This document shows, piece by piece, positions 4,242-52,940 of a stretch of DNA of 64,000 nt. Each line of letters opens with the position of its first letter. The stretch's first letter is position 1. The stretch comes from Luteitalea sp. (GTDB lineage Bacteria; Acidobacteriota; Vicinamibacteria; Vicinamibacterales; Vicinamibacteraceae). The position numbers were made by a program, and so were the translations under genes. The DNA is taken from the NCBI GenBank assembly GCA_009377605.1, contig WHTT01000004.1, positions 1 through 64,000 on the forward strand. Direction: 5' to 3'. The notes beneath the pieces are model-generated. The model saw nothing but the letters and a program-made list of their open reading frames with translations, was not told the origin of the DNA and made no database searches.

Positions 4242-6539
4242 ATGTTCTTCGCGGCTCGCTCGCCTTCGATATCGCTGGTGTTTGCGTGCACGATTGTGGC
4301 AACCGCGCCAAGCGTCGTGCACGGTGCAACGTCACAGGCAGCCAACGACACACATCCAAAAGGCGGAAGCGTCCACGGCGGCGTCGTCGATCCGGACAAT
4401 CGGCCGGTCGGCGGCGTTCGCGTCGTTCTCGACCGCGACGCCGCGCCGAATATCACCGACATGACCGACGCGCGTGGGCATTTTGCCTTCGACGGGCTCG
4501 ACGCGGGCCACTACGAGCTGCGCGCGTTTGCCGACGGCTTCGCAGCACGACCGGTGTCACTCACGCTCCGCGGCGACGAGACGCGTGAGCTGACGGTCCG
4601 ACTTCGCATCAGTCCAATCAACGAGTCGATGATCGTGTCGGCCAGCCAGGTCGAGCAGCCGCGCTCGGAGATCGGCGACAGCGTCAGCAGCTTCACCGAT
4701 CTCGAGCTGCGCGCGCGACAGATCGACAGCGTCGCCGGCGCGCTGCGGCTCGTGCCGGGGGTCACGGTCGCACAGAGCGGCGGTCATGGCAGCGTCACGT
4801 CTCTCTTTCCGCGCGGTGGAGAATCGAACTACACGCTGGTGCTCGTCGACGGCGTACGGGTGAACGACTTCGGCGGGGCCTTTGATTTTGCGCACGTCGG
4901 CGTCACGGCGGTCGAGCGCCTGGAGGTGGTACGTGGGCCGCAGAGCGCATTGTTCGGCAGCGACGCTATCGGGGGTGTCGTACAGATTGTCACCAAGCGC
5001 GGCGGTCCGACGCGCGCGGCCGGAAGCTATGAGCATGGAACCCTCGACACGCGGCGGTTCGCGGCCGACGCGGCCGGCTCCGTAGGCACGTGGCGCTGGG
5101 GCGGCGGCGTGGAGCGGCAGTCGAGCGACGGCTTCACCGGCACGGCGCCGGCGACCGGCGAGCGTGTGAGTAACGATGACTACACGCGCACGATGCTGAC
5201 CGCAAGCGGGAGTTATCACACGCGCCGGGATCAGGTGACGCTCGTGGGACACTGGGGTGAGAACGAGCGCGGCTTTCCGGGACCCTACGGGTCGGATCCG
5301 AATGAGACCTATCCCGGCATCGACCGAATCTCGCGCGGCGACAACGACACGTACGGCGCGGCGGTGGCGGCATCGCGGGCCTGGACGCCGGCGCTCAGAA
5401 CCCGCGGAGAGCTATCGATGAGCGCGCGCGCGAGCGGCTTCGTCAGCCCATTTGGCACTTCCGCTTCGGACAACCGACTCACAAGCGTACGCCTCCAAAG
5501 CGACTATGTGATGAGCGCAGATCTGGCGCTCAGCGCCGGCGCGGAGATGCAGCTCGAGCGCGCCGGTAGCTCCTTCATCACCGGCCGCGCCGGTCAGCCA
5601 GTGGATGTCGATCGGCGCGAGACGGGTCTCTTCGGCGAGCTTCGCTGGACGACTGGTCCCGTCTCGCTCACCGCGGGCGTTCGCGGTGATCACTTCCATC
5701 GCGAACGGCTCGAAGGCAGCAACGACCCGTTCGAGCCGAGGCCAGGCTTTGACACGGACACACTTGTGTCGGTCAATCCCAAGGTTGCGCTCTCGTACCT
5801 GGTCCACGCATCGCCGGATGCCTGGACGCGTCTCCGAGGCAGCGCGGGCACCGGGATTCGGCCGCCCGACGCGTTCGAGATTGCGTTTACCGACAACCCG
5901 GCCCTGCGACCGGAGCGGAGTCGGAGCGCCGATGTCGGGATCGAGCAAGGTCTCGCCGGCGGGCGCCTCGTCATCGATGCCGCACTGTTCGTCAATCGCT
6001 ACGACGACCTCATCATTCCGGTGGGCCGCTCGTTCCAAGACGCGAGCCAATTCCGGACCGATAACATCTCGAACGCCCGGGCCCATGGCGTGGAGCTGTC
6101 GGTGGCAACACGGCCCTCCGCGGGGTTTTCCGTCCGCGCGGGCTACACATGGCTCGACTCCGCTATCCTCGCGTCCGACGGCTCGAGCGGCGAGGCGCCG
6201 TCCCCATTCAACGTCGGTGACCGCCTGCCGCGACGCCCACGGCATCGAGGCTTTCTCGACATGGTGTACTCTGCCGGCCGGGTCGCGGCGTTCGCACGCC
6301 TCGATGCTCGGGGTGAATTGCTGGACGTCGACCCCACGAATGGTGCGTTCGGCGGTACCCTGAGCGCGGCCGGCTACGGTGTGTTCGATACGGGCGCAAG
6401 TTTCACGCTCTGGCGCGGCGTCGACCTGCTGGGGCGGTTCACGAACCTGTTCGATCGAGAGTACGAAGAGATTCTCGGCTTTCCCGCGCTCGGTCGCAGC
6501 TTGACCATGGGCGTGCGTGTCGATATTGGAACACGTTGA
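4242..6539 (+). CDS. btuB: TonB-dependent outer-membrane cobalamin receptor BtuB
   Basis: Outer-membrane receptor for cobalamin, energised by TonB. The 765-residue product has a signal peptide (about residues 1-30), a carboxypeptidase-regulatory-like Ig fold (about 40-120, GGVVDPDNRPVGGVRVVLD), a plug domain (about 140-270: LRLVPGVTV, LVLVDGVRVND, VERLEVVRGPQSALFGSDAI, GGVVQIVTK) and a beta-barrel ending in LFDREYEEILGFPALGRS and a terminal strand. The start at 4242 is set by AGGAGG four bases upstream; a TTG 81 bases upstream lies in the leader. The cobalamin riboswitch immediately upstream and the B12 ABC transporter genes downstream identify the substrate. It overlaps btuD (TGATG). Confidence 0.92.
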   Translation: MFFAARSPSISLVFACTIVATAPSVVHGATSQAANDTHPKGGSVHGGVVDPDNRPVGGVRVVLDRDAAPNITDMTDARGHFAFDGLDAGHYELRAFADGFAARPVSLTLRGDETRELTVRLRISPINESMIVSASQVEQPRSEIGDSVSSFTDLELRARQIDSVAGALRLVPGVTVAQSGGHGSVTSLFPRGGESNYTLVLVDGVRVNDFGGAFDFAHVGVTAVERLEVVRGPQSALFGSDAIGGVVQIVTKRGGPTRAAGSYEHGTLDTRRFAADAAGSVGTWRWGGGVERQSSDGFTGTAPATGERVSNDDYTRTMLTASGSYHTRRDQVTLVGHWGENERGFPGPYGSDPNETYPGIDRISRGDNDTYGAAVAASRAWTPALRTRGELSMSARASGFVSPFGTSASDNRLTSVRLQSDYVMSADLALSAGAEMQLERAGSSFITGRAGQPVDVDRRETGLFGELRWTTGPVSLTAGVRGDHFHRERLEGSNDPFEPRPGFDTDTLVSVNPKVALSYLVHASPDAWTRLRGSAGTGIRPPDAFEIAFTDNPALRPERSRSADVGIEQGLAGGRLVIDAALFVNRYDDLIIPVGRSFQDASQFRTDNISNARAHGVELSVATRPSAGFSVRAGYTWLDSAILASDGSSGEAPSPFNVGDRLPRRPRHRGFLDMVYSAGRVAAFARLDARGELLDVDPTNGAFGGTLSAAGYGVFDTGASFTLWRGVDLLGRFTNLFDREYEEILGFPALGRSLTMGVRVDIGTR

Positions 6540-7354
6540 TGCTGCAAGCTGCAGGCGTCTCATTCGGCTATCGCGAGATTCCCGTGGTCACAGACGTCTC
6601 GCTCACGGTCGAGTCTGGTCGCGTGCTCGGACTGCTTGGTCCAAACGGCGCGGGAAAGAGCACGCTCCTCAAGCTGCTCGCGGGCATTCTGAAACCCACC
6701 TTTGGCGCGGTCACGCTAGACGGGCTGCCGCTTGCCGCTTACTCGCGACGGCGACTGGCACGCCGGCTCGCGGTGGTGCCGCAAGAAACGCATCCGGCGT
6801 TCAGCTTCAGCGTGCTCGAGCTGGCGCTGATGGGTCGCTACCCTCATCTGGATGCATTCGAGCTCGAAGGGCCGGAGGATGTGGCAATGGCGCGCGCGGC
6901 GCTCGAGGCGACCGGCACGGCGCACCTGGAGGCGCGCGCATTCGCCACATTGAGTGGTGGTGAGAAGCAGCGCGTTGTGATCGCCAGCGCGCTCGCGCAG
7001 TTCGGGAATCAGGAGACGGGAAACAGAAGTCGTGTGGGCGAGCTATTGCTGCTCGATGAGCCGACGTCTTCACTCGATCTGCGCTATCAACTCGAAATTG
7101 CCGCCCTTCTGGTGCGTCTGAATCGGGAGCGCGGGACCACCCTCGTCCTGACGACCCACGACCTCGGCTTTGCGGCAAGCGTGTGTCAGGAGCTCTTGTT
7201 GCTGCGCGACGGGCGCCTGCTCGCCAGCGGGCCGACGGCCGCGGTTCTCACGCCAGCCAACGTGCGGGCGCTCTATGGCGTCGAAGTGGACGTTCGGTAT
7301 CACGCAGACGCTGGCCACCTGATGGTAGTGCCGCTTGCCCTGAGCGGACCGTGA
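6539..7354 (+). CDS. btuD: cobalamin ABC transporter ATPase BtuD
   Basis: ATP-binding subunit of the B12 importer. Visible motifs: Walker A GPNGAGKST (about residue 34), signature LSGGEKQR (about 138), Walker B LLLLDEPTSSLD and the switch histidine in TTHDLG. Between the signature helix and Walker B there is an extra segment FGNQETGNRSRVG (about residues 154-166), encoded by a degenerate 7-bp repeat (7005-7031). Most homologues join these two motifs directly. The ATG at 6539 overlaps the btuB stop, and the gene overlaps btuC by four bases, so translation is probably coupled. Confidence 0.93.
   Translation: MLQAAGVSFGYREIPVVTDVSLTVESGRVLGLLGPNGAGKSTLLKLLAGILKPTFGAVTLDGLPLAAYSRRRLARRLAVVPQETHPAFSFSVLELALMGRYPHLDAFELEGPEDVAMARAALEATGTAHLEARAFATLSGGEKQRVVIASALAQFGNQETGNRSRVGELLLLDEPTSSLDLRYQLEIAALLVRLNRERGTTLVLTTHDLGFAASVCQELLLLRDGRLLASGPTAAVLTPANVRALYGVEVDVRYHADAGHLMVVPLALSGP
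7005..7031. repeat. degenerate heptad repeat inside btuD
   Basis: Heptads GGAATCA, GGAGACG, GGAAACA and GAAGTCG follow one another in the coding sequence. They encode the extra surface segment between the ABC signature and Walker B. The reading frame is kept. Confidence 0.5.
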
Positions 7355-43250: not shown

Positions 43251-44639
43251 CTAATGCGGCACCGACTCGTTGGCAAGCCAGGCACGAACGTCGGCTAGCT
43301 GAGCTGCGACCGCCTGTGGCGCAGTCGATTGCGGTGTTGTGCGCGCCGCAATCGAGGTCTGCGGCGAAACGACCTGGCCAATGTCGGCGCCGAACAACCC
43401 ACTGAAGCGTTGCCAGTCGTCGATGCCGAGCATGTCGAAGCTGCGGCCATCGGCCACCAACTCGCGCACCATGTTGCCGACCGTCTCGTGCGCCTCCCGA
43501 AACGACATCCCTTTCTTGACGAGATAATCTGCGACGTCGGTGGCAAGAAGAAGCCCGGAAGCCGCCGTGCCCGTGACCTGGCGGTTCACACGGAGGGTCG
43601 AGACGACGGCACGCGCCGCGAGCAGACAGCCCAACAGCGTGTCCTCGGCGTCGAAGAGCGCTTCTTTGTCCTCTTGCAAGTCTTTGTTGTACCCGGACGG
43701 CAAGCCCTTCATCGTCGTGAGCCACCCGACCAACCGACCAATCACGCGGCCCGCCTTGCCGCGCGCCAGCTCCATCGGGTCAGGATTCTTCTTTTGAGGC
43801 ATGAGGCTGCTGCCCGTGCAAATGCGATCGTCCAGATCGAAGAACGCGAATTCCTCGGAGCTGAAGAGAATCACATCCTCGGCCAGTCGGCTCACGTGCA
43901 GCATGGCGAGGGCGCACGCATGGAGGAAAGCAGCGACAAAGTCACGGTCTGCCGTGGCGTCCAGGCTGTTGGCGACGATGCGTGAGAAGCCGAGGCGGGA
44001 GGCCAACCGTGCCGGATCGACGCCGTAGGAGTTGCCGGCCACGGCACCGGAGCCCAGGGGCATGGCGTCTGCCTCGTCGCGAGCCACGTCGAACCGCGAA
44101 CACGCGCGGCGAAGCGCCGCGGCATGCGCGAGCCAATAGTGGGCCTCGAGTATCGGCTGCGCCCGACGCAAGTGCGTGTAGGCCGGCATGAGCGCCATAC
44201 CAGCGTCCTCGGCGCGTTCCGCAAAGCTCGCCACCAAGGCGCGCATCGCGTCCTGGACGACAGGAATCCTGCGCTTGACGTACATTCGGAGGTCCAGCGC
44301 GACCTGTTCATTACGGGATCGGCCCGTGTGCAGGCGCTTCCCACGCTCGCCGACGCGCGAGACGAGCTGCCGTTCCACGAACGAGTGCACGTCTTCGTCC
44401 GCGCCGCTGACAAACGACACGTCGCGCTGGCCATCTTCAAGCATGGCCTGAAGCGCATCGTCAATCGCCTGGTGCTCCTCGACGCTCAGCACACCGACGC
44501 GAGCCAGCTCCTCGGCCCACGCGAGGCTGCCTCGCACATCGTCTTCGAAAAGGCGGCGGTCGAAGCGGAATGATGCCCCCCATTCGAGAACTGCAGCGTC
44601 AGGTTCGCCGGCAAACCGGCCGGACCAGAGAGTAGGCAT
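43251..44639 (-). CDS. argH: argininosuccinate lyase
   Basis: 462-residue lyase that cleaves argininosuccinate to arginine and fumarate. All signature regions of the fumarase/lyase family are visible: LWSGRFAGEPD at the N-terminus, DEDVHSFVE, TGRSRNEQVALDLRMYV, AYTHLRRAQPI (catalytic His region), and the flexible loop GSSLMPQKKNPDPMELARGKAGRV (catalytic Ser, quoted in part). It is intact and looks functional, which matters because the co-clustered argininosuccinate synthase homologue does not. It follows that gene on the same strand with a 262-bp gap filled by a repeat element. Confidence 0.95.
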   Translation of the reverse strand: MPTLWSGRFAGEPDAAVLEWGASFRFDRRLFEDDVRGSLAWAEELARVGVLSVEEHQAIDDALQAMLEDGQRDVSFVSGADEDVHSFVERQLVSRVGERGKRLHTGRSRNEQVALDLRMYVKRRIPVVQDAMRALVASFAERAEDAGMALMPAYTHLRRAQPILEAHYWLAHAAALRRACSRFDVARDEADAMPLGSGAVAGNSYGVDPARLASRLGFSRIVANSLDATADRDFVAAFLHACALAMLHVSRLAEDVILFSSEEFAFFDLDDRICTGSSLMPQKKNPDPMELARGKAGRVIGRLVGWLTTMKGLPSGYNKDLQEDKEALFDAEDTLLGCLLAARAVVSTLRVNRQVTGTAASGLLLATDVADYLVKKGMSFREAHETVGNMVRELVADGRSFDMLGIDDWQRFSGLFGADIGQVVSPQTSIAARTTPQSTAPQAVAAQLADVRAWLANESVPH

Positions 44640-44672: not shown

Positions 44673-44929
44673 GGGTGACAAGGTGATGGGTGACAAGGTG
44701 ACCCGGTGACAAGGTGACCGGGTAATTTGGTGCGCTGGCGGTTGGGCTCGGACGGTGTCTTGCATCGTTATCCCCGGCACTCATTGGGGTTGTCAATCGC
44801 ACCGGCTGTAGCTGTCAGCCCGTCACCCCGTCACCCTGTCACCCCGTCACCCTGTCACCCCTTCACCCTGTCACCCCTCACCCGGTCACCCCCTCACCCG
44901 GTCACCCTGTCACACCCTCCATCACCCCT
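44673..44929. repeat. 8-bp tandem repeats, inverted arrays (GGTGACAA / CACCCTGT)
   Basis: Left array 44673-44727 (GGTGACAA, GGTGACCC etc.), a 90-bp core, right array 44818-44929 with about twelve CACCC(T/C)(G/C)T units. The right array runs into the 3' end of the argG-like gene and encodes its last ten or so residues. Confidence 0.88.
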
Positions 44930-45933
44930 TCACCCCGGCTCGCCACCCTCGGTCGCGCCTCCTGGAGGAGAAGGTCGCCGCTCGACAGCTCGAAGCGCAG
45001 GGAGCCACTGACCGTTGCCAGCGCACGCGCGGTGAAGGCGTCGATCGCCTCTCGCTCGGGCGAGAACCACGCGCCGTCATGCAGAAGATCGATATAGGCA
45101 CGTGCGAGCGACCGCCGCAATTCGAGGAGGCGCGGCGACAAGCACAGGGACTCGAGCGCTTTGAACGCACGGCTGAGGACCGTGGCCGCCGGCGCGTGCC
45201 AGCCGAATGCATCGACAGGCATGGCGCTCAGGATTGCGTCGAGGCTCCCAATGAGCTCGAGAAACGCCATCGACACGCCGTTGACCGCATCCGGCACGCC
45301 GTTCTGCACGCTGATCTCCACCACAGCGCGCTCGGTCGGCACGTGTACTACCGCCCCTTCCGCGCCGGGCGGGCGGCCCGTTTGGTCGCTACCGGCGGTC
45401 GCGAACACTGGTCGCCCCCACAGCGTGGACGCACTCCGCGGCCAATCAGCCTCACCCGCGTCTGCCAGACCGAGCTCGGCTGCCGCGCGCGCCCGCTCTT
45501 CGGGTGACATCGCGTCGGCGAGCGACGGCAGCACCGGCGTGGCCGTACGCGAAGCGAGAAGTCGTGGCACCCGCTCGGCCGTGCCGCCATGCGCGATCGC
45601 GGAGGCCTGCTCCATGGCCGCCACGTCGGCGACGAGCCACGCGACGAGCGGCGACGTGAGTGGCCTCACGAGCGGATCCTCGTGGTCGAGAGAGATCGCG
45701 CCAGCGCGAAGCGCCGGCAACACCAGCTGCTCCGCCAATCGGTCGCGGGCATCAATCACGTGCGCGCGCGCCGCGCCCGCGGCCAGTGCTTGTTCTCGCA
45801 CGTCCGCGAGATTGGCCGGCTGACCGAGGTCCAGCGTGACGGTCACGACCTCAGCACTGTACCGGGTCGCGAGCCAAGGAATCGCGACGAGCGTCGGCGA
45901 GTCGCCATCGTGCGCAAGCAGAATACGGTTCAC
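44902..45933 (-). CDS. argininosuccinate synthase homologue lacking the PP-loop and substrate motifs
   Basis: 343-residue protein, colinear with argininosuccinate synthase (usually about 400 residues). Matches: VVTVTLDLGQPANLADVREQAL, AHVIDARDRL, PLTSPLVAWLVADVA, AIAHGGT, STLWGRPVFATAG, VEISVQNGVPDAVNG, FGWHAPAATVLSRAFKALE, LCLSPRLLELRRSLARAYI, DGAWFSPEREAIDAFTARAL and VSGSLRFEL. However, the ATP-binding SGGLDTS loop is DGDSPTL, the TGKGNDQVR substrate block is absent after AHGGT, and the C-terminus is replaced by residues encoded in a repeat array. No stop codon or frameshift interrupts it. It sits between argR and argH where a working argG would be expected, so it is either a pseudoenzyme or a strongly diverged enzyme. 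Confidence 0.8.
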   Translation of the reverse strand: MNRILLAHDGDSPTLVAIPWLATRYSAEVVTVTLDLGQPANLADVREQALAAGAARAHVIDARDRLAEQLVLPALRAGAISLDHEDPLVRPLTSPLVAWLVADVAAMEQASAIAHGGTAERVPRLLASRTATPVLPSLADAMSPEERARAAAELGLADAGEADWPRSASTLWGRPVFATAGSDQTGRPPGAEGAVVHVPTERAVVEISVQNGVPDAVNGVSMAFLELIGSLDAILSAMPVDAFGWHAPAATVLSRAFKALESLCLSPRLLELRRSLARAYIDLLHDGAWFSPEREAIDAFTARALATVSGSLRFELSSGDLLLQEARPRVASRGEGVMEGVTG

Positions 45934-45966: not shown

Positions 45967-46485
45967 TTACTCAGGGGTTGCTCCATCCACTTCCGCGACC
46001 GACCCACCTGCGGTCCAGCGCTTCATGCGTGCGACACAGAGATCCGCCTGGCGCGCATCGCGGGCAATGACCAGAATCGTATCGTCGCCGGCGATCGTGC
46101 CAACGACTTCCGGCAGCTCGGCGTGGTCGATTGCAAGGGCGAGCGGCTGCGCCTGTCCGGGATCCGTCCGCAGCACGATGAGCTGCTCCACGCGATCGAG
46201 CCGACGCAGGTACGACAGGACAGTCCGACGCAACGTCGCCTCCGCCGCGTCGGGCCTTCCGACCAGGTTCGGCCCAGGGCGCTTGTACGCGCCGTCGGAA
46301 GCCCGTTTGACGAGGCCGAGGTCCTTTATATCGCGTGAGAGCGTCGCCTGCGTGACGTCAATTCCCTGACGCAGCAATCGCATCCTGAGCTGTTCCTGGC
46401 TCGCAACGACCTCTCGGTCGACGACGTCCAGGATGACGGCCTGGCGAAAGGCCTTCGTGGCTCCGATGGCCGAGACTTCGGTCAT
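45967..46485 (-). CDS. argR: arginine repressor ArgR
   Basis: 172-residue arginine-responsive regulator. The winged-helix domain contains [35 protein letters not shown] (quoted in part; [16 protein letters not shown] is the recognition helix), and the C-terminal oligomerisation domain carries [15 protein letters not shown], the arginine-binding Asp pair. It is divergent from argC with 220 bp between, containing two REP-like hairpins, a perfect palindrome and a good promoter. It is expected to repress the flanking arginine genes when arginine is abundant. Confidence 0.93.
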
Positions 46486-46649: not shown

Positions 46650-46679
46650 TTGACACTGTCAACGGGGCGTGCGTATTAT
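46650..46679 (+). promoter_or_regulatory. sigma-70-type promoter of argC
   Basis: TTGACA at 46650-46655 and TATTAT at 46674-46679, 18 bases apart, 27 bases before the argC start codon. The start region TGTATGAGTATTCCATGA (46692-46709) is palindrome-like and could be a second operator half for ArgR. Confidence 0.65.
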
Positions 46680-46705
46680 TGGGGTTCGTCCTGTATGAGT
46701 ATTCC

Positions 46706-47707
46706 ATGACAGAGCGCTCTTCGGTCAGTGTCGGCATCGTCGGTGCGACAGGCTACGCCGGTCAGGAGCTGGTGCGTCTCCTGGCAAGGCACCCGCAGAC
46801 GGCGCTGCTGGCGGTGAGCGCGTCCGGTGAAACGAATGGCCCGCGCCGCCTCCCGGCGCTTGCGCGGATCTGGGACGGTGAGGTGACCCCGTACGGCTCG
46901 ACCAGCTTCGACGGAATCGATGCCGTCTTTCTCGCCCTGCCAGAAGCCTTGGCTGCTGAGCTCGCGCCGACGCATCTCGACGCCGGTCGTCGCGTCTTCG
47001 ATCTCTCCGGCGCTTATCGACTTCGGGACGCCGTCGTCCGGCAGCGCTTCTATCCGAGCACACCGGATCCGCTTCCCGAGGGCACGCTGTACGCGCTGCC
47101 CGAGCTGGCGCGCGACGGGCTGCCTGAGGCGCGCCTCGTGTCCTGCCCTGGCTGCTATCCGACCGCGGCGCTGCTCGGGATTGGTCCGCTCGCAAAGGGC
47201 GGCCTCCTGGAGGGCGACGTCATTGTCGACGCCAAATCGGGCATCTCGGGCGCAGGCAAGGCACCCAGCGAACGCACCCACTTCTCCGAGAATCACGGCA
47301 GCGTTGCCGCATACGGGCTCTTCACGCACCGACATGCGCCCGAGATGGAGCAGGCGCTGGGGCTGCCCGTGACGTTCGTGCCGCACCTGGTTCCACTCGA
47401 CCGCGGCCTGCTCGCGACGATCTACGCGCGCGTCGCGCCCGGCGTCGAGGGTGCGGATCTTACGGTGTGCTACGAGGCGGCATACCGCGACGCTGCCTTC
47501 GTGCGTTTGACGGGAGACCAGCGTCTGCCCGAGATCAAGCACGTCGCGCACACGAATTTCTGCGACATCGGCTGGCGGCTGGACCGAGCGACACGACGCC
47601 TGACGGTCGTCGCTTGTATCGACAACCTGCTGAAGGGCGCCGCCGGTCAGGCGGTGCAGAACTTCAACCTCGCGTATGGGTTTTCGGAGTGCGACGGCCT
47701 GTTGTGA
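46706..47707 (+). CDS. argC: N-acetyl-gamma-glutamyl-phosphate reductase
   Basis: 333-residue NADPH-dependent reductase of the third step of arginine synthesis. Visible: cofactor site VGIVGATGYAGQELVRLL, the catalytic cysteine in VSCPGCYPTAALLG, KSGISGAGKAPSERTHFSE, HRHAPEMEQ and VPLDRGLLATIYA. The ATG at 46706 (MTERSSV) follows the promoter by 27 bases; the in-frame start at 46679 overlaps the -10 element. It opens the argC-B-D-A-J-F operon. Confidence 0.95.
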   Translation: MTERSSVSVGIVGATGYAGQELVRLLARHPQTALLAVSASGETNGPRRLPALARIWDGEVTPYGSTSFDGIDAVFLALPEALAAELAPTHLDAGRRVFDLSGAYRLRDAVVRQRFYPSTPDPLPEGTLYALPELARDGLPEARLVSCPGCYPTAALLGIGPLAKGGLLEGDVIVDAKSGISGAGKAPSERTHFSENHGSVAAYGLFTHRHAPEMEQALGLPVTFVPHLVPLDRGLLATIYARVAPGVEGADLTVCYEAAYRDAAFVRLTGDQRLPEIKHVAHTNFCDIGWRLDRATRRLTVVACIDNLLKGAAGQAVQNFNLAYGFSECDGLL

Positions 47708-47726
47708 GACGTCGCCGGAGACCGAA

Positions 47727-48566
47727 GTGGAGACTGCAGTGCAGGTCGTGAAGCTTGGCGGCGAGCTCCTCGAGGAGCCGGCGCGTGTCGCCGCGCTCGC
47801 GGGGCGCTTGGCGCGGCTCGCACAATCTGCGCCGCTTGCGGTGGTGCACGGCGGCGGTCGTGAGATCGACGCCGAGCTCAGTCGCCGCGGCCTCGCGAAA
47901 CGCGCGGTGGACGGGCTGCGCGTGACCGATCGGGCAACGCTCGACGCTGTGGTGGCGGTGCTCGGCGGTCTGGTGAACACGCGCCTTGTGTCGGCGCTGG
48001 TTGCTGAGGGCGCGCGTGCGGTGGGCTTGACCGGAGTCGATGGGGCATGGGGCCTCGCCGAGAAGGCCCCGCCGCACCAAGCAACCGATGGGCGCCTGAT
48101 CGACCTTGGCCTCGTGGGGATGCCGATTGGCCAGTCGCGGACATCGTTATTGTCCGATCTCATCGGCCTGGGCTATGTGCCAGTCGTGGCGAGCCTCGGC
48201 GTGGACGCCGGTGGCCAGGTGTTGAACATCAACGCCGATACGCTGGCTGCACACGTGGCCTCGATCCTGTGCGCAAAGACGCTCTGGGTGGCAGGCAGCA
48301 CGCCGGGCGTGCTCGACTCGACCGGCGAGACCATCGCGACGCTCACCGGCGACGAGGCGCACGCCATGATGGCGGACGGCTCGGCCTCGGCCGGCATGGT
48401 GGCGAAGCTCACGGCATGTCTCTCGGCGCTTGATTCAGGCGTGAGTGACGTTCGCATCATCGACGGCCGCGATGAAGAGCTCGATACGGCGCCAGGCACA
48501 CGTGTCATGAGTGCCGATGGTGAGACGGGGCCAGAGCCCCGCCCTTCCTACTACCTACGTCGCTGA
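47727..48566 (+). CDS. argB: acetylglutamate kinase
   Basis: 279-residue amino acid kinase phosphorylating N-acetylglutamate. Motifs: VVKLGGELLEE (ATP-binding Lys and glycine loop), VVHGGGREIDAELSRRGL, DGLRVTDRATLDAV, GLTGVDGAW, VLNINADTLAAHVA and STPGVLDSTGETIATLTGDEA. The start is GTG 47727, preceded by GGAG six bases upstream; other GTG codons 15 bases downstream are possible. It follows argC by 19 bases. The C-terminal stretch of about 20 residues beyond the kinase fold is Pro/Glu-rich. Confidence 0.93.
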   Translation: METAVQVVKLGGELLEEPARVAALAGRLARLAQSAPLAVVHGGGREIDAELSRRGLAKRAVDGLRVTDRATLDAVVAVLGGLVNTRLVSALVAEGARAVGLTGVDGAWGLAEKAPPHQATDGRLIDLGLVGMPIGQSRTSLLSDLIGLGYVPVVASLGVDAGGQVLNINADTLAAHVASILCAKTLWVAGSTPGVLDSTGETIATLTGDEAHAMMADGSASAGMVAKLTACLSALDSGVSDVRIIDGRDEELDTAPGTRVMSADGETGPEPRPSYYLRR

Positions 48567-48659: not shown

Positions 48660-50000
48660 ATGGCTTCAGTAACCCAACAGCATTCGACGTCACCAGTCGC
48701 GGCGAGCGACGTCCGGGCACTGGAAGCACGCCACATCGTGCAGACCTATCGCCGTGTGCCCGTCGTCTTCGTGCGTGGCGAGGGAGTGCGGCTCTACGAC
48801 AGCGAGGGAAACGAGTATCTCGATCTGCTGTCCGGTATTGGAGTCGCCGCCGTGGGCCACGGCAACGCCCAGCTCGCAGACGCGCTATCGGAACAGGCGC
48901 GGACGCTGGCGCACACGTCCAACCTGTACTTCCATCCGCTCCAGGGTCAGGTGGCCGCCCGGCTTGCAGCTCTTTCTGGCTTGCCGCGTGCGTTCTTTTG
49001 CAATAGCGGCACCGAGGCGGTCGAGGCGTGTCTGAAGTTCGCGCGTCGCTATTGGCACACCGCCGGCACACCTCGTCACGAGATCGTCGCGCTCGAGCAT
49101 GGCTTTGCGGGGCGCACGTTTGGATCTTTGTCCGTGACCTGGGACGAGCACTATCGCACGCCGTTCGAGCCTCTCCTCCCGGGTGTGCGCTTCGTGCCGG
49201 TTGGAGACGAGCAGGCGCTCGGCGCCGCCGTGACGGAGCGAACGGCCGCCATCATCGCAGAGCCGATACAAGGTGAAGGGGGCGTGCGCCCGCTGTCGAG
49301 CGCCTTCGCGGCCCTCATGACCGACGTCTGCAAGCAAACCGGCGCCCTGCTCATCGCAGACGAGATCCAGTGCGGCCTGGGTCGTACCGCGAGCCCGTTT
49401 TACTTTCAGGCGCTCGGCTTGCAACCGGATCTCGTCTCGGTCGGCAAGGCGCTGGGCGGGGGCATGCCCGTCGGAGCGGCCCTGCTCTCGGAGCGGGTAG
49501 CTTCGGCGGTGTCGTATGGCGATCACGGTACGACGTATGGCGGCAACCTATTGGCGTGTCGCGCCGCGCTCTTCGTCCTCGACGCGCTGACCGGAGCTTC
49601 GGACACGGCCACGCCGGCGGGAGGCTTGCTCGCACATCTCCAGCGACTAGCGCCGCGGGTAGAAACGCGCCTCCGGGAGATCGCGGCACGCCATCCAATG
49701 GTCGTTGATGTGCGTGGGGCTGGCCTCATGTGGGGTCTAGAGCTCGATCGTGACGCCGCACCCGTCGTGGAAGCCGCCTTCGCGCGCGGCCTGCTCGTCA
49801 ACCGGACCGCAGAACGCGTCGTCCGATTGCTGCCTCCGTACGTCATCACGGAGGGCGACCTCGGAGTGGCGCTGACGCGCCTCGACGCCGCGTTCACGGC
49901 CGTAGAGTCGAGCTCGTCGCCGGGCGCTGTCGATTCGACACCGCAAGCCAGCCCGCAAGCCAGCCCGCGAGCCAGCACAGAGACGGAGGCGCAGAACTGA
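48660..50000 (+). CDS. argD: acetylornithine aminotransferase
   Basis: 446-residue class-III PLP aminotransferase (N-acetylornithine step). Visible: EYLDLLSGIGVAAVGHGN, FCNSGTEAVEACLKFARRYW, EHGFAGRTFGSLSVTW, PIQGEGGVRPLS, LLIADEIQCGLGRTASPFYFQ (PLP aspartate), SVGKALGGGMPVGAAL (PLP lysine) and GDHGTTYGGNLLACRAAL. The C-terminal 25 residues are an added Ser/Ala/Gln/Pro tail with QASP repeats. An AGGA motif precedes ATG 48660. The stop overlaps the next gene (TGATG). Confidence 0.93.
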   Translation: MASVTQQHSTSPVAASDVRALEARHIVQTYRRVPVVFVRGEGVRLYDSEGNEYLDLLSGIGVAAVGHGNAQLADALSEQARTLAHTSNLYFHPLQGQVAARLAALSGLPRAFFCNSGTEAVEACLKFARRYWHTAGTPRHEIVALEHGFAGRTFGSLSVTWDEHYRTPFEPLLPGVRFVPVGDEQALGAAVTERTAAIIAEPIQGEGGVRPLSSAFAALMTDVCKQTGALLIADEIQCGLGRTASPFYFQALGLQPDLVSVGKALGGGMPVGAALLSERVASAVSYGDHGTTYGGNLLACRAALFVLDALTGASDTATPAGGLLAHLQRLAPRVETRLREIAARHPMVVDVRGAGLMWGLELDRDAAPVVEAAFARGLLVNRTAERVVRLLPPYVITEGDLGVALTRLDAAFTAVESSSSPGAVDSTPQASPQASPRASTETEAQN

Positions 50001-50713
50001 TGGCTGTTGCCGCATCTGTGGCCCTGGAGGGTCTCCGGCCGGTTCGGGACAACGCAGCCGGTCTGGCGGTCTCACCGTCGAGCGGCAGCCTCGCGGCACC
50101 CCGTGTGTCGCGGCAGCTGGCGAACGGCTGCACGATTCGCACAGGAATGCCGGCGGACGCTCCCTTCGTGCATGCCCTCATTGGTTCCAACCTGGAGCTC
50201 GGCCACCTCCTGCCCCGCACGCTTGGCGAGTTGGAAATTCACGCCACGCGCTTCTCGGTCATCGAGCGAGAGGGGCGCGTGGTGGGCTGCGCAGAGCTGG
50301 CCTCATTGAGCTCCTCGGTCGCGGAGGTGCGGTCCCTCGTCGTAGCCCAGGCGGCGCGCGGTCAAGGGCTCGGCACGGCGCTCGTCGAGGAGCTGTCGGC
50401 GCGCGCACGACGCGAGGGCGTCTCGACTCTGTGCGCGTTCACGCACCACCCGGCGCACTTCGTGCGGCTCGGATTCTCCATCGTCCCGCACGTGTGGCTG
50501 CCGGAAAAGATCGCGCGCGACTGCACTGCCTGCGCGAAGTTCCGTACGTGCGGTCAGTATGCTGTCGTGTTGCACCCGGCGAGGACGCGTGCCGCGGGAG
50601 CGCACGCCACGCGGTCCAGCCGCGGGGAGACGAGCGTGCCCCGCGTAGGGCGCGCAATCGGCGCACGACCGCTGCGCATGGCGCGGGCGGCTGTGCGGGT
50701 CCCAGCGCGATGA
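50000..50713 (+). CDS. argA: N-acetylglutamate synthase, short GNAT type (ArgA-like)
   Basis: 237-residue GNAT acetyltransferase. An N-terminal Ala/Ser-rich stretch precedes the core (about 45-195) with the acetyl-CoA motif VVAQAARGQGLGTALVEELSARARREG (quoted in part) and FVRLGFSIVPHVWLPEKIARDCTACAKFRTCGQYAVVL, whose cysteine-containing end is typical of short N-acetylglutamate synthases such as mycobacterial Rv2747. It lies between argD and argJ and overlaps both by four bases, which fits the first step of arginine synthesis. The last 45 residues are basic and low in complexity. Confidence 0.85.
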   Translation: MAVAASVALEGLRPVRDNAAGLAVSPSSGSLAAPRVSRQLANGCTIRTGMPADAPFVHALIGSNLELGHLLPRTLGELEIHATRFSVIEREGRVVGCAELASLSSSVAEVRSLVVAQAARGQGLGTALVEELSARARREGVSTLCAFTHHPAHFVRLGFSIVPHVWLPEKIARDCTACAKFRTCGQYAVVLHPARTRAAGAHATRSSRGETSVPRVGRAIGARPLRMARAAVRVPAR

Positions 50714-51912
50714 CCGTTGGTCTCGGACGCGGCGTCACCGCCTCGCGGGGGTTTCGGGCCGCGGGCGTCCCCTGTGGCATCAAGGCGGGCGGGCGTGATC
50801 TTGCCTTGGTGGTGTCGGAGGAGGTGGCAAGCGCGGCAGCACTGTTCACGACGAATCTGGCCGTTGCTGCCCCGGTGCTCATCTCGCGCGAGCATCTGCA
50901 CGCCACCGGTGGTCGTGCGCGCGCCCTCGTCACGAACAGCGGCTGTGCCAACGCGTGCACTGGCGACGCAGGGCTCAAGGCCGCGGCGCTCATGGCGTCG
51001 GCGGTCGCCCGTGCGATTGGCTGCGAGGCCGAAGAGGTCCTCGTCGCCTCAACCGGCGTCATCGGCGTGCCGCTCGACGTGCACAAGGTCGCCGCGGGGA
51101 TCAGCGCAGCGGCGGAGCAGCTCGATGTGGCCGGCGGCGGCGATGCCGCCGAAGCGATCATGACGACGGATGCCTTTCCGAAGACGCATGCGTTGGAGGT
51201 GTCGATTGGCTCGGGCAGGTTCCGCGTCGGCGGCATGGCGAAAGGCGCCGGCATGATCGAGCCGAATCTGGCCACGATGCTGGCCTTCTTGACGACCGAT
51301 GCGGGCGTGGAGCCGGGGTTGCTACGAAGCGCGCTGATCGATGCCTGCGAGAGCACGTTCAACGCCATCACCGTCGATGGTGAATGCTCGACCAATGACT
51401 CGGTGTTCCTGCTTGCGAACGGGGCAAGCGGCGTCACGGTCGAGCGAGAGAACTACGATGCGCTCGTGGAGGGCCTCCGGGCCGTCTGCCGGCAGTTGGC
51501 GACCGAGATCGTGCGTGGGGCCGAAGGTGCGACCAAGCTCGTGACCGTGCGGGTGACGGGTGCACGCACGTACGAGGAGGCGAAACGCGCCGCCCGTGCG
51601 CTGGCCAATTCGCTGCTCGTGAAGACGGCGCTGCATGGCGGCGATCCCAACTGGGGACGTCTGCTGGCGGTGGCTGGGCGGGCCGGCGTGGCGTTCTCAC
51701 TGCCCGCGGCTCGCGCTGCGCTCGGTCCGGTCGTCTTGTTCGAGCACGGGCGCTCGTACGACGAGCGGTCGCCGGAAGCGGCCCGCTATCTGCAGGGTCG
51801 TGAGGTGACGGTGACCGTCGATCTCGGCGCCGGCGGACACGAAGAGGCCACGCTGTGGACGTGTGACCTCAGCGCGGAGTACGTGCGAATCAACTCTGAG
51901 TATCGAACGTGA
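50710..51912 (+). CDS. argJ: glutamate N-acetyltransferase ArgJ
   Basis: 400-residue ornithine acetyltransferase that recycles the acetyl group from acetylornithine to glutamate. It is an Ntn hydrolase-like self-cleaving enzyme; the cleavage site and Thr nucleophile lie in EPNLATMLAFLTTDA. Other motifs: GFRAAGVPCGIK, LVTNSGCANACTGDAGLKAA, STGVIGVPLD, AITVDGECSTNDSVFLLANG and HGGDPNWGRLLAVAGRAG. The start ATG 50710 overlaps the argA stop codon. Since argA is also present, ArgJ may act mainly as the transferase. Confidence 0.94.
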   Translation: MTVGLGRGVTASRGFRAAGVPCGIKAGGRDLALVVSEEVASAAALFTTNLAVAAPVLISREHLHATGGRARALVTNSGCANACTGDAGLKAAALMASAVARAIGCEAEEVLVASTGVIGVPLDVHKVAAGISAAAEQLDVAGGGDAAEAIMTTDAFPKTHALEVSIGSGRFRVGGMAKGAGMIEPNLATMLAFLTTDAGVEPGLLRSALIDACESTFNAITVDGECSTNDSVFLLANGASGVTVERENYDALVEGLRAVCRQLATEIVRGAEGATKLVTVRVTGARTYEEAKRAARALANSLLVKTALHGGDPNWGRLLAVAGRAGVAFSLPAARAALGPVVLFEHGRSYDERSPEAARYLQGREVTVTVDLGAGGHEEATLWTCDLSAEYVRINSEYRT

Positions 51913-51923
51913 GGAGCGTCATC

Positions 51924-52940
51924 ATGCGTCCTGGATCAGTGCCTACATCACGCACCGTTCCCTTCCGCACACGGGTGGCGAAGGCATCAGCGCGACCGCC
52001 GGTCGTGCGGCTGGCGCGGAAGGACTTCATCTCGGTGCTCGATCTCGACCCTGATTCGCTCGAGGCGTGCTTGCGCCTGGCGACCCACTTGAAGCAGGAG
52101 CGCCAGATGGCGCGCCGTGTGGCCTCCACGCAGGGACTCGCTGGTCATCACGTCGCGCTCCTGTTCGAAAAGCCATCCCTTCGTACCCGGTCGACGTTCG
52201 AGATCGCGGTGCGGGAGCTTGGCGGCGAGGCGATCTGCCTGGGCCAGGAGGTTGCCTTCGGCGGGCGCGAAGACGAGGCGGATGTCGCGCGGAATCTCGA
52301 GCGCTGGGTCTCGGCCCTCGTCTTGCGGACCTTCGCGCAGGCGCGGCTCGTCTCCTTTGCAGCGGCCGCGCCGCGCCTTCACGTTGTCAACGCACTGACC
52401 GACGAGGAACATCCTTGCCAGGCCCTTGCGGACGTGCTGACGCTCCGCGAGCATCTCGGCGACGTGCGCGGTCGCACGATTGCGTTCGTCGGCGATGGTA
52501 ACAACGTCGCCACCTCGCTTGCGCACGCAGCCGTCATGCTTGGGGCACACGTTCATGTGGCCTCCCCGGAAGGATACGAGCTGCCCGAGCGAGTGCTCGC
52601 CGAAGCCGCGGGCGTTGCGCGCTTCGGCGCCGAGGTGCGGCGCTTTCGTGAGCCTCAGGAGGCAGTACGTGGCGCGTCGGCACTCTACACCGACACCTGG
52701 ACGTCCATGGGCCAAGAGGCGGAGGCAGAGCGGCGCGCCCGCATCTTCGCGCCCTATCAAGTCAATGCGGCATTGATGGCCGAGGCCGGCCCGGATGCGC
52801 TGTTCATGCACTGCCTGCCGGCGCACCGGGGCGAGGAGGTGACCGACGAAGTCATGGACGGACCCGCTTCGGTGGTCTTCGACCAGGCCGAGAATCGCCT
52901 GCACGTGCAGAAGGCCTTGCTCCTGATGCTGCTGTCATAG
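51924..52940 (+). CDS. argF: ornithine carbamoyltransferase
   Basis: 338-residue carbamoyltransferase. The carbamoyl-phosphate loop reads FEKPSLRTRSTFE, with HPCQALADVLTL and FVGDGNNVATSL. The ornithine-binding motif YTDTWTSMGQE and C-terminal HCLPAHRGEEV are of the ornithine, not the N-acetylornithine, type. A basic N-terminal extension of about 30 residues precedes the domain. GAGGAG seven bases before ATG 51924 decides this start over a GTG at 51909 that overlaps argJ. Citrulline made here would need argininosuccinate synthase, whose only homologue in this cluster is degenerate. Confidence 0.93.
   Translation: MRPGSVPTSRTVPFRTRVAKASARPPVVRLARKDFISVLDLDPDSLEACLRLATHLKQERQMARRVASTQGLAGHHVALLFEKPSLRTRSTFEIAVRELGGEAICLGQEVAFGGREDEADVARNLERWVSALVLRTFAQARLVSFAAAAPRLHVVNALTDEEHPCQALADVLTLREHLGDVRGRTIAFVGDGNNVATSLAHAAVMLGAHVHVASPEGYELPERVLAEAAGVARFGAEVRRFREPQEAVRGASALYTDTWTSMGQEAEAERRARIFAPYQVNAALMAEAGPDALFMHCLPAHRGEEVTDEVMDGPASVVFDQAENRLHVQKALLLMLLS

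Follow-up and report, generated by a model that had tools for sequence, protein, structure and literature searches.

A predicted pseudoenzyme derived from argininosuccinate synthase in the arginine cluster of Luteitalea, a conversion that probably recurred at one operon position

In the 64,000-nucleotide stretch of Luteitalea sp. DNA analysed here (the window), the arginine genes lie on both strands, with argR, an argG-like gene that we call argGx, and argH on one, and argC, argB, argD, a GNAT acetyltransferase gene, argJ and argF on the other (Table 1). argGx is a single open frame of 343 codons with a GTG start, located between argR and argH and separated from the latter by 262 bp. In profile searches, argH, argF, argC, argB, argD, argJ and argR reach family-level scores and are untruncated. 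The initial annotation, which described a frame without frameshift in the company of intact argH, argF and argR, is thus borne out on both counts. A sequencing error or frameshift as the cause of the aberrant argGx sequence is ruled out, since the sister genome (L032/L082) and four other family members (L033–L036) share the degenerate state, and selection on the frame is purifying. Between argGx and argH, a 16-bp unit (GTCACCCTGTCACCCC) is repeated in tandem 6.3 times, and its complement forms a shorter array (window positions 44673–44723 and 44814–44913).

Table 1. Arginine-cluster genes of the window and the two replaced loops of the argGx product.
Feature	Positions	Strand	Basis
argGx, argG-like, putative pseudoenzyme gene, 343 aa, GTG start	44902..45933	-	Pfam, alignment, AlphaFold2, structure matches
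argGx codons 7-15, AHDGDSPTL, replacing PP-loop AYSGGLDTS	45889..45915	-	alignment and contact table
argGx codons 116-126, GGTAERVPRLL, replacing G(C/A)TGKGNDQVR	45556..45588	-	alignment
argR, arginine repressor, upstream neighbour of argGx, same strand	45967..46485	-	both ArgR domains above Pfam cut-off
argH, argininosuccinate lyase, downstream neighbour of argGx, same strand	43251..44639	-	TIGR00838, 517.6 bits (cut-off 279.5)
argC	46679..47707	+	TIGR01850
argB	47676..48566	+	TIGR00761
argD	48660..50000	+	TIGR00707
GNAT acetyltransferase, N-acetylglutamate synthase-like	50000..50713	+	PRK07757-like, below PRK07757 cut-off
argJ, ORF probably extends upstream of the true start	50431..51912	+	PRK05388
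argF, ornithine carbamoyltransferase	51909..52940	+	TIGR00658, 331.7 bits (cut-off 280.85)

The argGx product is homologous to type 1 ArgG (PF00764 plus PF20979) over nearly its full length, with both domains above the Pfam cut-offs (1.3e-21 and 5e-16, respectively), and its gene occupies the operon position of the order's intact orthologues. Sequence and fold homology across both domains place it by descent in the ArgG superfamily, yet its 154 bits against the NCBIfam argG models (PRK00509/TIGR00032) fall far below the cut-off of 334. Nor does it belong to NF038212 argG_rel (argininosuccinate synthase-related protein), likewise a distant ArgG relative, against which it reaches 78.9 bits with a cut-off of 425. 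What sets it apart from type 1 ArgG is the loss of the PP-loop, the KGND loop, the citrulline-binding Ser, Glu and Tyr, and the C-terminal arm. The replacement of SGGLDTS by DGDSPTL, read initially from the sequence, is confirmed by alignment, in which the ATP pyrophosphatase loop AYSGGLDTS is AHDGDSPTL. The TGKGNDQVR block had been called missing; this aspartate/citrulline loop is indeed gone in its canonical form, with N120, D121 and R124 all substituted, but it is replaced by GGTAERVPRLL rather than deleted. Similarly, the near-full colinearity with ArgG holds across both domains but not to the end, as the alignment stops before the C-terminal tetramer arm (about 50 residues, absent here), and alignment with intact orthologues shows a deletion of the VENRLVGIKSREIYE loop, which bears the Glu and Tyr that contact citrulline.

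Substrate contacts were scored at 20 positions, which we take to be the ATP, citrulline and aspartate contacts of the T. thermophilus ArgG structure. Their numbering was checked on an alignment with 1j1z. The argGx product keeps the ArgG residue at just 5 of the 20, compared with 17–20 in canonical copies, and at none of the six citrulline contacts (Y84, S89, S173, S182, E258 and Y270 in T. thermophilus numbering), so the loss concerns the whole active site, beyond the PP-loop. The ArgG fold is predicted to persist: the AlphaFold2 model (pLDDT 84, pTM 0.83) matches ArgG structures with Z scores of 32–35, and 7k5z with 35.5, over 329 residues.

With the N-domain profile, the window copy was the sole match in this genome, and a genome without ArgG was at first suggested; this was rejected when the C-domain profile, together with the sister's canonical protein as query, revealed a second ArgG on contig C176. 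Bases 1–798 of C176 encode residues 173–438 of canonical ArgG, with 91% identity to the intact sister copy. The contig begins inside the gene, which is open from the first base, so that the last two thirds are assembled and the rest falls in an assembly gap; the missing N-terminal part was sought on C122, which carries the upstream neighbour, and is absent there. Canonical orthologues in the sister genome and in related species of the family have all 20 contact residues. Because the C176 fragment is canonical and its orthologues keep every contact, we conclude from these sequences that the Luteitalea genome presumably encodes a working ArgG, the unassembled N-terminal part being supplied by inference. 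In the ArgG tree, the canonical enzyme falls outside the clade that holds all cluster copies, and it is therefore no recent duplicate of the cluster gene. Two of the options raised in the initial annotation can thereby be assessed: a functional argG elsewhere was right as to presence, and another chemistry for making argininosuccinate is left without support and is not called for, given the ordinary ArgG on C176. The sister genome also carries a second canonical argG (L038, G001:C25, about 6054–6947) that stops after ~215 ArgG residues, its intact copy lying on C19.

In a survey of 60 relatives, many genera have a canonical argG between argR and argH, and others a degenerate one. The contact scores have a bimodal distribution, with 17–20 in canonical cluster copies and 2–12 in degenerate ones, referred to as dead hereafter; the single score of 2 (L092) is due in part to an ORF cut at its start. 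Dead copies occur at the same place in 28 sampled clusters of one order, apparently Vicinamibacterales, and share the gene order argR-argGx-argH. A scan of 84,980 species genomes yielded further dead copies, all in acidobacterial-type arg clusters, from records titled Luteitalea, Vicinamibacterales and Acidobacteria, and profile scores gave no sign of dead copies outside the order in 80 genomes drawn across the phylum. Two acidobacterial-type arg clusters, L108 and L148, come from records titled Bifidobacterium breve and Acidimicrobiia, which are probably mislabelled or misbinned metagenome assemblies.

Neighbouring states were also found. Three cluster copies with a shortened end (L031, L069 and L030) are possible early stages. 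In G013, G031, G032 and G056, argR adjoins argH with no argG between them, and in G039 an 80-codon ArgG remnant (L172, 6759–6998, minus strand) overlaps the argR stop and the argH start. This remnant consists of the first strand joined to the hairpin-helix of the second domain. A further possible early stage is L024 (G042), where a cluster ArgG with SGGLHTS, the PP-loop Asp being changed to His, stands beside a type 2 ArgG; in L027 (G022), a cluster ArgG with N120I is the sole ArgG found in the genome.

Of the 28 genomes whose cluster copy is dead, 24 have a second intact ArgG, compared with 7 of the 33 whose cluster copy is intact (Fisher p 5e-7). This association is not significant when phylogeny is counted, as only 6 independent pairs are available. 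The type of this second enzyme differs by family, being type 1b in family f1 and an E. coli-like type 2 in others. Domain profiles detected no second ArgG in four drafts, G010 (L064), G014 (L054), G023 (L052) and G064 (L105), all having a degenerate cluster ArgG with argH beside it; their count exceeds the expectation from draft completeness.

On a tree built from the neighbouring arg proteins, no fewer than 9 changes are required to explain the dead state, and branches with at least 95% support force at least 6 of these. Since a return from dead to active is implausible, the changes are most simply separate losses. No cluster with both a dead and an intact copy was seen among those sampled. 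The ArgG tree built from all columns joins the dead copies at support 94, on long branches; without the trait columns, neither topology is rejected, whether the dead copies form a single clade (p-AU 0.30) or separate clades by family (p-AU 0.38). Owing to the long branches, the ArgG tree fits one origin or several, and the case for several therefore rests on the neighbour-gene tree and the absence of two-form clusters. Taken together, these results make it quite probable that the dead cluster ArgG arose several times.

The argGx protein sequence is under constraint. Comparison with the sister copy gives a dN/dS of 0.26 [0.19–0.35], and comparisons among four related species of the family give 0.12–0.20; dead copies in other lineages range over 0.11–0.38, with upper bounds of at most 0.52 in 15 pairs, the exact values being rough because dS is about 1. 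When the sense frame of these alignments is shifted, the values are 1.3–4.2, and most differences lie at third positions. One antisense frame also gives a low value, as expected when third positions coincide. In the same pairs, argH and argR have dN/dS of 0.03–0.26, except in the pair L050/L103, and the dead-copy value is about 1.5–4 times that of argH. The original claim that the gene is selected as an open frame is thus strengthened, in that the amino-acid sequence itself is selected. Catalytic residues have been lost in a conserved, selected protein, and the same genome holds a presumably active homologue, of which the C-terminal two thirds are on C176 and the N-terminal part is unassembled. 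Of the regulatory pseudoenzyme envisaged at the outset, the pseudoenzyme part is made plausible by the dead active site and the dN/dS of 0.12–0.26.

Dead copies retain columns conserved in intact copies at 0.75–0.87 over residues 26–75 (0.87 at 51–75) and 0.80–0.84 over 201–250 (0.84 at 226–250), with retention of 0.14 at 151–175 and about 0.05 at 351–400. Twelve positions, including R46, R56 and H58, hardly vary among the intact and dead copies of the order, yet have these residues in only 0–25% of ArgG from other Acidobacteriota. The dead copies have lost 27 positions that are universal in ArgG. Retention in dead copies bears no relation to universal ArgG conservation (Spearman -0.03, p 0.61). 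A mere need for the fold or for an open frame is not expected to favour order-specific over universal residues, and this is the main ground for proposing a non-catalytic role, although the order-specific retention may be due in part simply to descent.

The explanation that we favour, tentatively and as something just short of an even prospect, is that argGx encodes a dead ArgG paralogue, the order's original cluster-borne enzyme turned pseudoenzyme, with a non-catalytic partner role towards ArgH or, less likely, ArgR. The ancestral ArgG of the order would have combined catalysis with a non-catalytic job. Catalysis would then have passed to a second ArgG, a distinct type 1 enzyme in the window's family, and selection on the cluster copy would from then on have concerned its non-catalytic job alone. 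The job proposed is a protein–protein role in the arginine cluster, structural or regulatory, for which the candidate contact parts are half of the first domain (residues about 26–75) and the hairpin-helix of the second (about 201–250). A cluster protein, ArgH first, is the more likely partner because the type of the second ArgG varies while argR and argH are constant neighbours. Several observations weigh against this reading. The role would be dispensable, given that four genomes lack the gene and G039 has just the remnant; dead copies have a higher dN/dS than argH; four drafts with a dead copy yielded no second ArgG; the link with a second ArgG loses significance once phylogeny is considered; and the N-terminal part of the canonical copy falls in an assembly gap. 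The broader proposition, that the order's ArgG has a second function and that at least six lineages separately made the cluster copy a pure partner while keeping the same order-specific residues, is one that we advance with more reserve.

Passive decay of a redundant ArgG, with the frame kept open merely to spare argH translation (through polarity or coupling) and the protein functionless, would account for the graded series of sizes (400, about 380, 340, 314, 250 and 80 codons, then full loss), for the in-frame deletions, for the G039 remnant spanning the argR stop and argH start, and for the faster change of dead copies relative to neighbour genes. Polarity alone would not, however, conserve amino acids, and dN/dS is low in the true frame and above 1.3 in the other sense frames; such decay thus fits the progressive shortening but leaves the amino-acid constraint unexplained, and for the window's family it is strongly disfavoured by dN/dS. 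The spacing of argGx and argH in the window also speaks against it, as does the clean deletion of the gene in some lineages, from which it follows that the operon needs no argG spacer. We regard this account as unlikely.

A mixed oligomer in which ArgGx activates or regulates active ArgG as a prozyme-like subunit is a design known for dead paralogues elsewhere, such as the trypanosomal AdoMetDC prozyme (PMC5201418), and the co-occurrence of dead copy and active ArgG in most genomes with a dead copy agrees with it. But active ArgG is of distantly related types across families, and the C-terminal arm (about residues 351–400) is lost in dead copies, so that we consider this arrangement improbable. 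More improbable again is that ArgGx is a sensor or enzyme whose remodelled pocket still takes up a small ligand such as an arginine-pathway metabolite: a folded ArgG-like pocket is predicted, and the nitrile synthetase ArtA has the ArgG fold with changed chemistry, yet in the dead copies the loops lining the pocket rank with the least conserved regions and no new invariant pocket motif was seen in place of the lost loops. That the argGx product is an active argininosuccinate synthase lacking the PP-loop, and the genome's only one, is hardly credible, for although homology across both domains, cluster position and the first N-domain search pointed that way, the canonical ArgG on C176 and the near-complete loss of ATP, citrulline and aspartate contacts contradict it.

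There is ample precedent for dead paralogues that regulate active enzymes or support them (PMC10211241, PMC5201418, PMC3663545). The argGx product resembles the trypanosomal AdoMetDC prozyme (PMC5201418) and trypanosomatid deoxyhypusine synthase (PMC3663545) in its dead site and its retained, here predicted, fold, and it shares with acting dead paralogues (PMC5201418, PMC3663545, PMC10211241) purifying selection and a presumed active paralogue in the same cell. It differs from prozyme-type systems in that its partner is putative, the active paralogue varies by lineage, and it probably arose repeatedly at one locus. ArtA (9leh, 9lei) has the same ArgG fold and matches argGx in sequence (5.5e-11), but is an enzyme by its depositors' name, whereas the argGx product is predicted to be non-catalytic. 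We found no report of an ArgG-derived pseudoenzyme or of this locus in the open-licence literature. Repeated dead conversion at one operon position is unusual, and the novelty lies in this likely repetition and in the use of the replicates to locate a second function.

If the two-function reading of the order's ArgG is true, these lineages amount to a natural replicate experiment in which one enzyme's functions were separated. Provided that the origins are indeed independent, the dead copies show which parts of ArgG have a task other than catalysis, and a hidden second role of this central arginine enzyme becomes directly testable. For the genomes themselves, annotating argGx as argG misjudges their arginine synthesis.
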